A stretch of 64,000 nt of DNA from Aliishimia ponticola (GTDB taxonomy: Bacteria; Pseudomonadota; Alphaproteobacteria; Rhodobacterales; Rhodobacteraceae). Below the pieces are notes generated by a model that had not been told where the DNA came from, made no database searches, and was given only the letters and a program-made list of their open reading frames with translations. Within the stretch, counting starts at the first letter, position 1. The number at the start of each line of letters is the position of its first letter. Location of the stretch: assembly GCF_004803475.1 (NCBI RefSeq), contig NZ_SRKY01000002.1, positions 186,001 through 250,000 of the forward strand, given 5' to 3'. The position numbers and the translations under genes are program-made. Of this stretch, positions 18,663 through 24,052 are shown piece after piece.

Positions 18663-19667
18663 TCAGCTCATGGCGTGGCGGTAGCCAGCCGAATAGGCGC
18701 CGGTCAGGTGGTGTTCCAACTGCCGTTCGATATCCCCCAAGAGCGAGGATGCGCCAAAGCGGAACAGATCGGGTCTGAGCCAGCGGTCGCCCAGTTCCTC
18801 CTTGATCAGTGCCAGATACAGCAGTGCGTCCTTCGCCTTGGAAATCCCGCCCGCAGGTTTGTAACCCACGCGGAAGCCCGTGCGTTCGTGGAATTCGCGG
18901 ATCGCGCGCAGCATCACCAGTGTGACGGGCAGCGTGGCGTTCACGCTTTCCTTGCCGGTCGAGGTCTTGATGAAGTCCGCCCCCGCCAACATGCAGATCA
19001 CCGAGGCGCGGGCCACGTTGCGCAGCGTGCCAAGTTCGCCGGTGGCGAGGATGGCTTTGACATGGGCGTGTCCGCAGGCTTCGCGCATCTGGCACATCTC
19101 GTCGTAGAGGGCCTGCCAATTGCCTTCCAGCACATGACGGCGCGAGATCACGATGTCGATTTCCTCGGCGCCGGCAGCGACGCTTTCGTGGATTTCCTGA
19201 AGGCGCAGGTGAAAGGGCGACAGACCGGCGGGAAACCCGGTGGAGACCGCCGCCACGGGAATGCCGGAGCCCTTCAGCGCGTTGACGGCTGTCGGCACCA
19301 TTTCGTGATAGACGCAGACCGCGCCCGTGGTCAGGCCGTCCAGCCCCAGCGCGTGCAGGATTTCAGTGCGTACCGGGTGGCGGGCCTTGGCGCAAAGGCG
19401 TTCGACGCGGCGCGCGGTGTCATCGCCTGACAGTGTTGTCAGGTCGATGCACGTGATCGCCCGCGCGAGCCAAGCGGCTTGGTGATCTTTCTTGATCGAC
19501 CGGCGGCCCGGCAGCGTCGCGGCGCGGCGTTCGATGGCCGAGGTATTGGCGCGCAGATTCCGCACCCATCCAAGGTCCAGCTCAAAGCCGGGATTGCGCG
19601 GTTCGGTCACTTGCGGAAGCTGTGCGGTCGTGGCCGTGCCGCGTGTTTTTTCTGGTGTAATTGTCAT
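18663..19667 (-). CDS. deoC: Deoxyribose-phosphate aldolase
   Basis: DeoC cleaves 2-deoxyribose-5-phosphate to glyceraldehyde-3-phosphate and acetaldehyde. The 334-residue protein is the long form of the family. The Schiff-base Lys is in DFIKTSTGKESVNA, and the second active-site Lys in VGYKPAGGIS. A long N-terminal extension (about 60 residues) with ERRAATLPGRRSIKKDHQ precedes the TIM barrel. ATG 19667 was chosen because sequence upstream is atypical. ALDH16 lies downstream on the same strand, giving a likely deoxynucleoside catabolic pair. Confidence 0.95.
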   Translation of the reverse strand: MTITPEKTRGTATTAQLPQVTEPRNPGFELDLGWVRNLRANTSAIERRAATLPGRRSIKKDHQAAWLARAITCIDLTTLSGDDTARRVERLCAKARHPVRTEILHALGLDGLTTGAVCVYHEMVPTAVNALKGSGIPVAAVSTGFPAGLSPFHLRLQEIHESVAAGAEEIDIVISRRHVLEGNWQALYDEMCQMREACGHAHVKAILATGELGTLRNVARASVICMLAGADFIKTSTGKESVNATLPVTLVMLRAIREFHERTGFRVGYKPAGGISKAKDALLYLALIKEELGDRWLRPDLFRFGASSLLGDIERQLEHHLTGAYSAGYRHAMS

Positions 19668-19827
19668 GGCGTGGGCCTTGTTCGCAGTTGCGCGGACAGT
19701 GCCATGTGGCAGGGCGGGGTGCAAGGCGATGGGTCTGCACAAGCTCTGCACGAATTTACCCGCACCCCCTGCACGGCGGCGCGCGAAAACCGGTGAAACA
19801 CCTGCCAAAAAGGAAGGAGCCGGGACA

Positions 19828-21363
19828 ATGAAATCTTATCTGGTGCGCGGGGTGCCGCTGCGGTTGCAACAGGATGGGTGGTGGCTGTCCGCCCCCGTGG
19901 CGGAGCCTGCGGGCCCGCCGGTGGACACGGGGCGTCAGGGCTGGCTTGGCGAGAGCCATCTGCCCAATCTGGCATTGCTGGTCGCCTTGGTCGCGCTGGC
20001 GGATCAGTTGGTCTGGAATGTCGCGCCGGGTTTGTCACTGGCGGTCTTCGTCGCTGTTTGCATCGCCGCCGCGGCAGAGCTGTTGCCCGGTCGCATTCCG
20101 GCGCGCCGTCGTTTTCTGGCGGCCGCAATTGCGCTGATCGCCTGTTTGCCCGTCATCGAACTGGTGCAGCCCTTATCGCTGCTGTTCTATTTCGCGGGCT
20201 TGCCGCTTGCCCTGATGGCCCTGACCGGGCGGCGCCTTCGCGGGGCTTTTCGGTTCTGGTGGCTGGCACCGATCTTTTCCTGCAGTGACGCGGCCCAAGC
20301 GGTTCGGGCTCCCGAAGCGGCGCAGGACATGGCGGGACGGGCACGTTCGGCACTGATGGGCTGGGCGCTGCCTTTGGGGGTCGGCATTGTCTTTTGCGGT
20401 CTGCTGCTTTCGGCCAATCCGGTGCTGGATCAATGGGCGCGCGGTGTGCTGGACTGGAGCCCGCAAGCCCCGGACCTGCGGCGCATGGTGCTGTGGTTTT
20501 GCCTTGCGCTTTGCATCTGGCCGCTGGTCAACCTGGCGCGGTTCGCGCCGCAGCTTTCCCCCGATCCGAAACCTGCCAAATTCGGGCCGGTCCGCGTGCC
20601 GGGTATCATCAATGGCGGTGCCATCGCGCGCAGTCTTATCCTCTTCAACGGGCTTTTTGCGCTGCAAAATACGCTGGACGTCGCGGTTCTGGCCGCCGGG
20701 ATCGGCCTGCCCGACGGGATGAGTTATGCCGAATATGCGCATCGCGGTGCTTACCCTCTGGTCATATTGGCGCTGCTGTCCGGTGGTTTCGCGCTGCTGG
20801 CCCGGCCCTTCATCACTGCGGCGCCGTTTCTGCGTTACTTGCTGCTGATCTGGGTGGCCCAGACCGTATGGCTGACCTGTTCGTCGCTGCTGCGGCTGGA
20901 TCTTTACGTGGAAACTTATGGCCTGACCCGGATGCGCATGGCGGCGGCAATCTGGATGGGGCTGGTTGCGGCGGGGCTTGCATTGACCCTGTGGCAAATC
21001 CTGCGGGGCCAAAGCAATCTGTGGCTGCTCCAACGCAGCGCGGCACTTGGGGCTGGCGTGGTTTGGCTGTGCTGCTTCGTCAGTTTCGACAGGGCAATCG
21101 CGCATTACAACCTGACCCACGATGTCCAGCAGGATTGGCGCTATTTGTGCCGCCTTGGCGATGGGGCGCGTCTGCCGGTCCTTGTCCATACCGGCCGCAG
21201 TTTGGCCGATACATGCGGCTTGCATCACCCGCTGGCCGGACCAATCAGCGCGCCCGCAGACTGGCGGGAATGGGGGTTTCGCAACGCGCGCCTGCGGCGT
21301 AGCCTCGCCACGTTCGAAGCAGAGATGGCGACAGATGTCCGATCCTCAGATCCTCATTATTGA
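19828..21363 (+). CDS. DUF4173 domain polytopic membrane protein
   Basis: The 511-residue protein has about ten hydrophobic segments spread over residues 45-425, followed by a soluble C-terminal tail of about 80 residues. The middle part carries the DUF4173 features (LFNGLFALQNTLD, GMSYAEYAHRGAYPLV, RLDLYVETYGLTRMRM). AAGGAAGG lies 9-13 bases before ATG 19828. Its last 29 bases overlap the start of the response regulator gene, and that gene overlaps a histidine kinase, so the three are a tightly coupled unit. Function is unknown; it could be the sensor or the target of the two-component system. Confidence 0.82.
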   Translation: MKSYLVRGVPLRLQQDGWWLSAPVAEPAGPPVDTGRQGWLGESHLPNLALLVALVALADQLVWNVAPGLSLAVFVAVCIAAAAELLPGRIPARRRFLAAAIALIACLPVIELVQPLSLLFYFAGLPLALMALTGRRLRGAFRFWWLAPIFSCSDAAQAVRAPEAAQDMAGRARSALMGWALPLGVGIVFCGLLLSANPVLDQWARGVLDWSPQAPDLRRMVLWFCLALCIWPLVNLARFAPQLSPDPKPAKFGPVRVPGIINGGAIARSLILFNGLFALQNTLDVAVLAAGIGLPDGMSYAEYAHRGAYPLVILALLSGGFALLARPFITAAPFLRYLLLIWVAQTVWLTCSSLLRLDLYVETYGLTRMRMAAAIWMGLVAAGLALTLWQILRGQSNLWLLQRSAALGAGVVWLCCFVSFDRAIAHYNLTHDVQQDWRYLCRLGDGARLPVLVHTGRSLADTCGLHHPLAGPISAPADWREWGFRNARLRRSLATFEAEMATDVRSSDPHY

Positions 21364-22033
21364 TGACGACGCGCAAATCCGCGAGGTGTTGCGGATCGCG
21401 GTTCGGCAGGCGGGAATGGTCTGCGACGAGGCGGGCGATGGCGCAGAAGGGCTTGCAAAGGCGCGCTCTGGCAGGTTCGATCTGCTGGTGCTGGATATCG
21501 GCCTGCCGCGAATGGACGGGCTGGCCGTTTGCCGCGAACTGCGGACGACGTCGGACGTGCCGGTGCTGTTCCTGACCGCCCGCGATGACGAGATCGACCG
21601 CGTCTTGGGCTTTGAACTGGGCGGCGACGATTATGTGAGCAAGCCTTTCTCGCCGCGCGAACTGGTGGGGCGGATCAAGGCGATCCTCAAGCGGACTCGC
21701 GACGCGGCGCCGGTTGTGGGCACTGACGGATATGCACGGGGGCGGCTGCGGCTGCACCCGGAACGGCACCATTGCGATGTGGGCGGGGTGCCTATCGGTC
21801 TGACCGGGCGCGAGATGGATATTCTGGCGCTGCTCATGGCGCAGCCAGAGCGCGTCTTTGCCCGGCCCGCGCTGGTGGACCGGGTCTGGGGCGCGGGCAT
21901 GGTCGTTTCGGACCGGACACTCGACAGTCATCTGCGTAACCTGCGCTTCAAGCTGACAGAGGCCGGTTGCCCTGACGCCATCGAAACGCTGCATGGGGTC
22001 GGAATTCGGATGGGCGCATGTCGCGGCGGGTAA
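21335..22033 (+). CDS. OmpR/PhoB-family response regulator
   Basis: A 232-residue regulator with a receiver domain (acidic pair at Asp10-12, phospho-acceptor Asp54 in LLVLDIGLP, Thr81, Lys103 in SKPFSP) and a winged-helix DNA-binding domain (about 130-228) with LTGREMDILALLM and DSHLRNLRFKL. The ATG at 21335 is inside the end of the DUF4173 gene; the histidine kinase begins 16 bases before its stop. The cognate kinase is therefore clear. The target promoters are not obvious from the sequence. Confidence 0.93.
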   Translation: MSDPQILIIDDDAQIREVLRIAVRQAGMVCDEAGDGAEGLAKARSGRFDLLVLDIGLPRMDGLAVCRELRTTSDVPVLFLTARDDEIDRVLGFELGGDDYVSKPFSPRELVGRIKAILKRTRDAAPVVGTDGYARGRLRLHPERHHCDVGGVPIGLTGREMDILALLMAQPERVFARPALVDRVWGAGMVVSDRTLDSHLRNLRFKLTEAGCPDAIETLHGVGIRMGACRGG

Positions 22034-22986
22034 GGCGGAAATGGCGGCCACCGCTTTTGCTGGTGCTGGGCGGGACGCTGCTGGCGGTGCTGGCCTTGCC
22101 GATCCTTGGGCTGACGGTGTTCCGTCTGGCGGGCGACATTCTGGGTTGGGCGGAAACGGCTTGGCTGATCTTCTGGCTTGCGGTGGTGGCGACCGCCGCG
22201 CTGGCATGGTTGCTGTCCCGATTGGTGTTGCGCCCTGTCTGGGCGCTGACCGCTCACGCGCAGGCCATGAAGGTGGCGCGGGATGTGCCGCCGCCAGACC
22301 GTTTCGGCACCGCGGAATTGTCCGATCTGGGCCAAAGCGTGATCGAGATGGGCGCGACGCTGCATGGGCGCGCACGCGGGCTTTCGGCCTATGCAGATCA
22401 CGTCACGCATGAGCTGAAATCGCCCCTGACCGCTATTCGCGGCGCGGCGGAAATGCTGGATGATCCGGGGCTTGCGCCCGGGGATCGCGCCCGCTTGTTG
22501 CAGACAATCCACAACTCTGGCGCGCGGATGCAGCGGCTCTTGGATGATCTGCGCGCCCATGCGGCGGTGCGTCTGACCGCCGCGCAGGGTGAATGCACCC
22601 TGGCAGAGGCGTTGGCGGCGGCGGAGCTTCCCGGTGGTCTGGACCTCAAGGCGACGTCGCAGGCCCGGTTGCCCATCGCAGCCCAAGACCTTGCCCGTGT
22701 GATCACGCAACTTGCCCGGAACGCCGCGGAGGCCGGGGCGCAGGCCATGGTGATCTCCGACGTGGATGCGGGTTTGCGGGTCGCGGATGACGGGCCGGGC
22801 ATCGCCGAAGGTGACCGGGACCGGGTGTTCGATCCGTTCTTCACCTCGCGCCGCGATGCAGGCGGGTCTGGGATGGGCTTATCCGTGGTTCAAAGCCTGA
22901 TAGAAGCGGCAGGCGGGCAGATCACGCTGGAGCCATCTGGCGCCGTGTCCACGGAAGGCGCCTCTTTTCTCATCGAATTCACGTAA
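22018..22986 (+). CDS. Intramembrane-type sensor histidine kinase
   Basis: The 322-residue kinase has two membrane helices (about 12-38 and 47-70) separated by fewer than 10 residues, so it has practically no periplasmic sensor domain. A HAMP-like linker follows, then the H-box with phospho-acceptor His131 (HVTHELKSPLTA), the N-box (ITQLARNAAEAG), G1 (VADDGPGI), F (DPFF) and G2 (GGSGMGLSVV). All catalytic boxes are intact. It overlaps the regulator gene by 16 bases. The signal is probably sensed within the membrane or via the DUF4173 protein. Confidence 0.92.
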   Translation: MSRRVRRKWRPPLLLVLGGTLLAVLALPILGLTVFRLAGDILGWAETAWLIFWLAVVATAALAWLLSRLVLRPVWALTAHAQAMKVARDVPPPDRFGTAELSDLGQSVIEMGATLHGRARGLSAYADHVTHELKSPLTAIRGAAEMLDDPGLAPGDRARLLQTIHNSGARMQRLLDDLRAHAAVRLTAAQGECTLAEALAAAELPGGLDLKATSQARLPIAAQDLARVITQLARNAAEAGAQAMVISDVDAGLRVADDGPGIAEGDRDRVFDPFFTSRRDAGGSGMGLSVVQSLIEAAGGQITLEPSGAVSTEGASFLIEFT

Positions 22987-23001
22987 GCCGGACATTTTTA
23001 T

Positions 23002-23016
23002 TGCGAATAATTCGCA
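23002..23016 (+). promoter_or_regulatory. Fur/Mur-like operator, distal
   Basis: TGCGAATAATTCGCA is a 15-base near-perfect palindrome (only the central base breaks it) resembling Fur-family boxes such as the Mn-responsive Mur site of alphaproteobacteria. It is 62 bases upstream of the metal-binding protein start and just before a TTGACT (23022-23027) that could be the -35 element. Confidence 0.7.
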
Positions 23017-23030
23017 GGAACTTGACTTCT

Positions 23031-23045
23031 TGCGAATTGTTCTCA
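23031..23045 (+). promoter_or_regulatory. Fur/Mur-like operator, proximal
   Basis: TGCGAATTGTTCTCA is a second, less symmetric copy of the same box, 29 bases (close to three helical turns) from the first. The two sites bracket the putative -35 hexamer, a good arrangement for repression by a metal-loaded Fur/Mur dimer. Confidence 0.68.
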
Positions 23046-23077
23046 TTTTGTGATGTGGCAGTGAGGAAAGGTCTGAA

Positions 23078-24052
23078 ATGCTGACACGTCGCGAACTGAT
23101 TGGTGCATCTCTTGCCGCTTTGGCGGTTCCGAAGGCGGCATTGGCGCAGCAAAAGCTGAACGTCGTGGCGACGACCGGCATGATCGCGGACACGGTGTCG
23201 CGGATCGGCGGGGATGCTGTCGATGTGCGCGGCCTGATGGGGCCGGGCATCGACCCGCATTCCTATCGGCAGACCCGTAGCGATATCGTCACGATGACGC
23301 GGGCGGATATTGTTCTGTGGAACGGTCTGTTCCTCGAAGCGCAGATGAAGGACGTGCTGGAACGTCTGGCCAAGCGTCAGCCGGTTGTCGCTGTGTCGGA
23401 TCGGCTCGAAGCGGCGGCGCGGGCGGGGGGCGCCACGCCGCTTATCGCACATGCCGAATACCATGATGCCTTCGATCCGCATATCTGGATGGATCCCGCG
23501 ATCTGGGGCGGGATCGCCGCCCGCACGGCAGAGGCCCTGACCGAGCTTCGGCCAGATGACGCGGCCACGTTCGACGCAAACCTCGCGGCATTCCAAGCCG
23601 ATCTTGACGCGCTGACCGCCTACGGGCTGGACGCGATGGACAAAGTGCCGGAGCATCGGCGCGTTCTGGTCACGGCACATGATGCGTTTTCCTATTTCGG
23701 GCGGGCTTTTGGATTGGAAGTCCACGGCGTTCAGGGCATTTCCACAAATAGCGAAGCGGGCTTGCATCGCATCCGCGAATTGGTCGAGATGCTGGCAGAG
23801 CGCGAGATCAAGGCGGTCTTCGTGGAAAGTTCGGTGTCGGATCGCAATATCCGCGCGCTGATCGAAGGGGTCGCGGCCAAGGGCGGCACACTGTCGCTGG
23901 GCGGGCAACTTTACAGTGACGCGATGGGTACGGCTGGCACCTATGAAGGGACATATGTCGGAATGCTCGACCACAATATCACGACCATTGCGCGTGCGCT
24001 TGGGGCCGATGTGCCTGCGGCCGGGCTCAATGGCGAATTGATCCAGAGTTAA
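23078..24052 (+). CDS. Metal ABC transporter substrate-binding protein (Zn/Mn/Fe family, TroA-like)
   Basis: A 324-residue periplasmic cluster A-I binding protein. The signal peptide has a twin-arginine-like start (MLTRRELIGASLAALA) and cleavage after about residue 23 (ALA). The expected metal ligands are His61 (DPHSYR), His135 (FDPHIWMDP), His201 (TAHDAFSYF) and Asp281 (QLYSDAMG); the His at the third position is TroA-like rather than the Glu of PsaA/SitA. The ATPase and two permeases follow directly. Two Fur/Mur-like boxes upstream suggest repression by metal, probably manganese. Confidence 0.93.
   Translation: MLTRRELIGASLAALAVPKAALAQQKLNVVATTGMIADTVSRIGGDAVDVRGLMGPGIDPHSYRQTRSDIVTMTRADIVLWNGLFLEAQMKDVLERLAKRQPVVAVSDRLEAAARAGGATPLIAHAEYHDAFDPHIWMDPAIWGGIAARTAEALTELRPDDAATFDANLAAFQADLDALTAYGLDAMDKVPEHRRVLVTAHDAFSYFGRAFGLEVHGVQGISTNSEAGLHRIRELVEMLAEREIKAVFVESSVSDRNIRALIEGVAAKGGTLSLGGQLYSDAMGTAGTYEGTYVGMLDHNITTIARALGADVPAAGLNGELIQS

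Follow-up and report, generated by a model that had tools for sequence, protein, structure and literature searches.

The window analysed here is a 64,000-nucleotide stretch of the Aliishimia ponticola genome (RefSeq assembly GCF_004803475.1, contig NZ_SRKY01000002.1, positions 186,001 to 250,000), in which three overlapping genes encode a DUF4153 membrane protein, a response regulator and a histidine kinase without a periplasmic sensor. Our data favour, with a probability that we put at roughly two in three, the reading that these genes form a Cre-like two-component system whose output is the DUF4153 protein, a non-homologous stand-in for the CreD protein of CreBC systems. The features concerned are as follows.

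19735..19752 (+): cre-tag-like direct repeat CTGCACAAGCTCTGCACG, with TGCAC at 19736, 92 base pairs (bp) before the DUF4153 start
19770..19774 (+): third TGCAC half-site, 34 bp after the first half-site (33 in most relatives)
19828..21363 (+): polytopic membrane protein of the Pfam family DUF4153, 511 amino acids, first gene of the trio
21335..22033 (+): OmpR/PhoB-type response regulator, 232 amino acids, probably a sister lineage of CreB
22018..22986 (+): histidine kinase without periplasmic sensor, 322 amino acids, top NCBIfam model CreC

These coordinates agree with the overlaps of 29 bases (DUF4153 gene and regulator) and 16 bases (regulator and kinase) claimed by the sequence-only reading, which had labelled the first product DUF4173; Pfam instead assigns it to DUF4153 (PF13687), at 202.6 bits over residues 98-449 against a cut-off of 27, and returned no second family at E<=0.1. 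A single DUF4153 copy was found in the A. ponticola genome. At its N-terminus, ahead of the first membrane helix, the protein carries the motif RGVPxxLxxDGWW. Its AlphaFold model (predicted local distance difference test, pLDDT, 84.1; predicted template modelling score, pTM, 0.79) appears to match no recognisable fold among the structures returned by Foldseek, the top PDB match having E 0.39, and VIA-align gave at best unrelated helical repeats (Z 9.4 over 110 residues), a result that is uninformative for a helical protein. Placement of DUF4153 in the Cache superfamily has been rejected in print, in a passage of PMC4822843. Two cysteines, at residues 441 and 463 (window 21148-21216), are invariant in 56 aligned sequences from loci of the Rhodobacterales type and missing from five outgroup sequences; they may form a disulfide or metal pair.

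The regulator has receiver and winged-helix domains in Pfam, and the kinase has HisKA and HATPase_c, together with a HAMP match of 24.3 bits that falls under the cut-off of 25. Hydropathy in fixed 19-residue windows places the hydrophobic stretches of the kinase at residues 14-32 and 48-66, with a gap of 15 residues between the windows and of about 10 between the visible hydrophobic runs. Judged by hydropathy and Pfam, the kinase has the two helices, the very short loop and the lack of a sensor domain that mark intramembrane-sensing kinases; the short loop and the missing periplasmic sensor had already been read from the sequence.

The association of the three genes is conserved. In a first survey DUF4153 was found in 18 of 149 genomes of the family, A. 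ponticola counted, and the order DUF4153-regulator-kinase was kept in all 18, one trio spanning a contig break (genome G132, two contigs) and two having a split DUF4153 (G123 and G013); some of the genomes surveyed are incomplete, and G445 and G620 are represented by short contigs. Flanking genes vary among these 18, so that deoC, an aldehyde dehydrogenase and a metal transporter come and go, and the downstream metal transporter was rejected as a partner, as it adjoins the trio in 4 of the 18 genomes, with one more contig ending too early. A larger survey of 394 family genomes, in which the first is contained, revealed 82 with the kinase (E<=1e-30) and 47 with DUF4153 (E<=1e-10), the latter all falling among the 82 and each having the regulator and kinase adjoining; scoring was limited to the top 15, 5 or 3 candidates per genome, depending on the survey, and distant copies may escape it. 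Among the best 80 of at least 579 confirmed DUF4153 relatives in named genomes, regulator and kinase lie downstream in 79, the 80th locus being a contig of 3,819 bases that holds DUF4153 and the regulator only; 11 of these named loci are the same places as loci of the family survey, and the two samples therefore overlap. We take the genera in the titles of the 80 loci to be Rhodobacterales or alphaproteobacterial bins.

A class-level draw placed DUF4153 in 31 of 289 genomes, and the trio recurs in other families at four loci (L080, L082, L083 and L084). At a fifth locus from another family, L079, a DUF4153 gene scoring 201.6 bits has no adjoining two-component genes, and the trio was found at none of the 14 fetched loci with weaker, though not the weakest, matches of the draw (L085-L098), some of them on contigs of 3.6 to 8 kb. 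These counts support the trio as a conserved module, as the sequence-only reading had proposed. Linkage to two-component genes elsewhere, on which that reading had staked its proposal, holds for this DUF4153 subfamily and does not extend to the 14 weaker relatives or to E. coli YhgE. Its suggestion that the module is undescribed agrees with our finding no account of the trio in the titles, abstracts and passages searched (PMC4822843, PMC12151479 and PMC12542696 included), a literature that had preprints and most subscription journals outside it.

The second line of evidence is the promoter. In passages of PMC4689548 the cre/blr tag is given as TTCAC-N6-TTCAC upstream of creD, with the tag of Stenotrophomonas maltophilia at -80 to -65, and our box scan recovered the E. 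coli creD tag, used as a positive control, as TTCACCGTCACTTCAC at -77. Within 130 bp upstream of DUF4153, a TGCAC-N6-TGCAC box matching at 9 or all 10 positions was present in 97 of 108 rows with a placeable start (59/69 named loci and 38/39 other loci). Close relatives inflate these counts, and some of the promoters counted had served to define the motif; a further 18 rows had been excluded for an unplaceable gene start or too little upstream DNA. Removal of nine duplicate rows leaves the box in 88 of 99 distinct operons, as compared with 0.87% of random stretches from the same loci. It lies between -113 and -66 (median -86) relative to DUF4153. A third half-site at +33, with at least 4/5 matches, accompanies it in 67 of the 88 distinct box-bearing operons (1.9% expected at a fixed place). 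In the trios of other families, searched over 800 bp, the box stands near the gene start with 9/10 matches at L080 and 10/10 at L082, L083 and L084. The regulator is predicted to bind at this box. A sigma-70 promoter scan of 19600-23150 found none.

Genome-wide, the exact short pattern has 5 sites in A. ponticola, as against 3 in a reversed control, while a longer pattern has a single one. The longer pattern was also run on 36 genomes hand-picked from the 82, most of which have the short kinase described below and many of which were already known to carry a box. It yielded 47 sites, as against 5 for the reversed pattern, and the 47 are spread over 31 of the 36 genomes, a proportion that is no frequency estimate. 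Twenty-nine of these sites lie at the operon, 3 before creD and 15 elsewhere without a clear common target. It could be supposed that DUF4153 is a housekeeping gene that neighbours, by accident, a regulator mainly controlling other genes; the weaker DUF4153 relatives located away from two-component genes and the 18 of 47 sites that fall outside the operon would fit. We regard such an accident as very improbable, given that linkage and order are kept while the flanks change, that the box precedes DUF4153 in 88 of 99 distinct operons and that the longer pattern has a single site in A. ponticola. In two genomes, at L316 and L317, an identical box, CTGCACATTTGCTGCACA, stands before a small conserved gene (MESGTRPVKGT...), possibly a further member of the regulon.

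The third line concerns creD itself, for which no match was found in the A. ponticola genome. Among the 149 family genomes creD occurs in 13, namely in 8 of 27 with the kinase versus 5 of 122 without it (p 3e-4, relatedness ignored), and it is present in 21 of the remaining 55 kinase-bearing genomes. Three of the 18 extra-operon box sites precede creD genes, one of which scores 381.5 bits in Pfam. A box with at least 9 matches lies upstream of the unlinked creD, at -74 to -90, in 15 of 29 kinase-bearing genomes (background 0.8%), and one with at least 8 in 22 of 29 (background 5.9%), while in kinase-less genomes the creD box was seen in 0 of 4, the fifth creD being a fragment. Since the same box stands upstream of DUF4153 and of creD, DUF4153 would take CreD's place as an output of the system. 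DUF4153 and CreD tend to occur one in place of the other, with creD found in 8 of 47 DUF4153-bearing versus 21 of 35 DUF4153-less genomes (p 7e-5). On a midpoint-rooted tree of the 82 kinase-bearing genomes, built from regulator and kinase, there are 14 changes of DUF4153 and 19 of creD. In 8 of 14 non-overlapping contrasts creD is confined to the side without DUF4153, and in none to the side with it (sign test 0.008), the remaining 6 being uninformative (creD on both sides in 2, on neither in 4). A profile comparison detected no homology of the two proteins, hhalign giving DUF4153 and CreD (PF06123) a probability of 0.2% and E 0.38.

Nine of the 34 DUF4153-less loci (L045, L047, L049, L106, L112, L123, L149, L154 and L155) retain a short open reading frame upstream of the regulator with the DUF4153 N-terminal motif (L..D.WW), in a scan restricted to frames whose end lies no more than 40 bases from the start of the regulator. 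These frames may be scars of a deletion, a leader for coupling or a remnant that still functions.

Several observations weigh against the Cre-like reading. At loci without DUF4153 the box, under a laxer score, precedes the regulator in 18 of the 22 that have a short kinase but in only 4 of the 12 that have a long one. Fourteen of the 29 creD promoters fall below 9 matches; the creD sites of G112, G474 and G020 came from the scan that prompted the comparison, and their exclusion leaves 12/26; and the contrast of 0/4 with 15/29 is not significant alone (p 0.11). The Fisher tests ignore relatedness, and replacement is incomplete, with 14 of the 82 kinase-bearing genomes having neither DUF4153 nor CreD and 8 having both. 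E. coli YhgE has no cre tag, the best candidate matching 8/10 at -378. The CreB and CreC cut-offs are both missed, in the window and in the other trios scored. By BLAST the window regulator scores 154 against E. coli PhoB, 152 against BaeR and 142 against CreB, and the top two matches of E. coli CreB in the A. ponticola genome are other regulators.

The nearest family models are nonetheless those of CreB and CreC. CreB (NF008296; 214.5 bits, cut-off 273) is the best of 99 NCBIfam models that match the regulator at E<=0.01, and the kinase matches CreC (NF008312) at 117.4 bits, below the cut-off of 356 and from model position 188 onwards. Four further trios, of which three belong to other families, likewise have CreB and CreC as their top NCBIfam models, below the cut-offs. 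A tree of 73 regulators, whose 28 module rows were chosen from the loci and several of whose long branches are unreliable, splits off the module group and the CreB group each by a branch at 100/98, and CreB, BaeR and the module group meet in an unresolved fork; another A. ponticola regulator, L247, is placed among the module rows with weak support. On cut-off and tree we reject CreB orthology. Because of the scores below cut-off, the separate clades and BLAST not singling out CreB, the regulator is best called a sister lineage of CreB, and the system would not be CreBC itself.

The kinases fall into two classes by the distance from the regulator stop to the phosphorylated histidine, about 125 versus about 310-320 residues. 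Four long kinases that were scanned have a dCache_3 match in one and a GAF match in three, all below cut-off, and E. coli CreC has Cache matches just below cut-off. On the 82-genome tree the short form requires one change, from the sensor-bearing form. At L084, in another family, the kinase is short as well; as this locus is separate from the main group of short kinases on the regulator tree, a further sensor loss is likely. With the rows of G123 (split regulator reading) and G651 (no histidine motif found) corrected beforehand, 38 short kinases occur with DUF4153 and 23 without it, and 9 long kinases with it and 12 without it.

These counts bear on the claim of the sequence-only reading that DUF4153 is a sensor or transport partner in the manner of Bce or Lia systems. 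BceAB partners BceS and LiaF partners LiaS, and by the same token the kinase here might read the state of DUF4153 in the membrane. The kinase has lost its own sensor, and in the 394 family genomes every DUF4153 found of this subfamily came with the kinase; DUF4153 or CreD accompanies 55 of 61 short versus 13 of 21 long kinases (p 0.006 in a Fisher test that ignores relatedness); and identity in the kinase loop is higher in DUF4153-bearing genomes (0.40 versus 0.25), a difference matched in 0 of 300 label shuffles, which ignore relatedness. Set against this, the regulator and kinase are kept without DUF4153 in 35 of 82 genomes, 23 of them with the short kinase, DUF4153 sits beside a long, sensor-bearing kinase in 9 of 47 trios, and at L079 it has no adjoining two-component genes at all. 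Loop conservation, tried as a mark of a sensor partner, was rejected: the group means favour it and the tree-independent pairs do not, the signal vanishing in 12 such pairs (R36 2:1, G39 4:4). As the loop signal is gone once relatedness is removed, the partner model gains nothing from it, and we consider a sensing partnership unlikely. A bolder idea, about as unlikely, is that the kinase, having no sensor, monitors the membrane by way of DUF4153 or CreD, depending on which is present, the two being interchangeable non-homologous envelope proteins that have changed places as its partner many times in Rhodobacterales.

DUF4153 could also be output and brake at once, made when the regulator is active and then inhibiting the kinase within the membrane. 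Feedback of the CpxP kind offers a known precedent, and the box ahead of the operon's own promoter region would fit, as would the weak partner signals; survival of the kinase without DUF4153 in those 35 genomes runs counter to it, and we think feedback of this kind quite improbable. Given how often short kinases come with DUF4153 or CreD, DUF4153 may nevertheless have some role in feedback or sensing.

In the Cre-like system that we favour, the kinase would phosphorylate the regulator, which would bind TGCAC direct repeats with an 11-bp spacing and turn on its own operon, with the DUF4153 membrane protein as first and main product; in relatives the same regulator would turn on creD located elsewhere. 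On the simplest account, the conserved job of the regulator would be to induce DUF4153 or CreD, an inner-membrane protein in each case, along with its own operon. Because its periplasmic sensor was lost, once in this lineage, the kinase would sense within the membrane or via another protein, and by analogy with Cre systems the signal may come from the envelope. Like CreD, DUF4153 would sit in the inner membrane, be produced when the envelope is under stress and keep it intact. According to passages of PMC4689548, loss of CreD weakens the envelope in Stenotrophomonas and inactivation of creBC raises creD; passages of PMC2654508 report that CreBC of Pseudomonas aeruginosa is activated by loss of PBP4 and that, apart from ampC and the gene co-transcribed with it, creD alone changed more than twofold.

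According to passages of PMC4689548 and PMC2654508, CreBC systems have creD in common as a gene under tight control, and the action of its protein has been little studied. A second, unrelated protein that seemingly replaces CreD under a similar promoter offers a handle on CreD function; since DUF4153 seems to replace CreD, whatever CreD does DUF4153 should do. The same reasoning provides a first functional lead for the DUF4153 family, which includes E. coli YhgE, and the predicted binding site makes the regulon testable in Rhodobacterales. In a passage of PMC7394356 a yhgE start-codon mutation is one of three mutations in Evo3A, an ampicillin-tolerant, filamenting E. coli population, which agrees with an envelope role and proves nothing.

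Downstream of the trio, an inverted repeat, TTGCGAAT..TTCGCA, lies at 23000-23050, between the kinase and an operon for a manganese/zinc-type ATP-binding cassette (ABC) transporter (binding protein at 23078-24052). It resembles a Fur/Mur-type site.

Among known systems, E. coli YhgE shares the DUF4153 family (109.6 bits), but it lies beside pck and hslO, with no adjacent regulator of this kind. BceS, LiaS and SaeS resemble the kinase in that only a very short loop joins their two membrane helices and that the operon includes a polytopic membrane protein; they differ in that the neighbour here is DUF4153 rather than an ABC permease, that the kinase often persists without it and that the short form is derived from a sensor-bearing kinase. 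The closest parallel is CreBC-CreD (BlrAB-BlrD) of gammaproteobacteria. The box here is TGCAC whereas that of Cre is TTCAC, half-site length, spacing and place being equal; the regulator forms a separate clade; the membrane protein is DUF4153, encoded first in the operon; the kinase has no sensor; and A. ponticola has no detected creD. Common to the two systems are an OmpR-type regulator and a kinase for which CreB and CreC are the nearest models, together with a direct repeat of 11-bp period at the same distance before the gene of an inner-membrane protein; in relatives the same box precedes creD genes.

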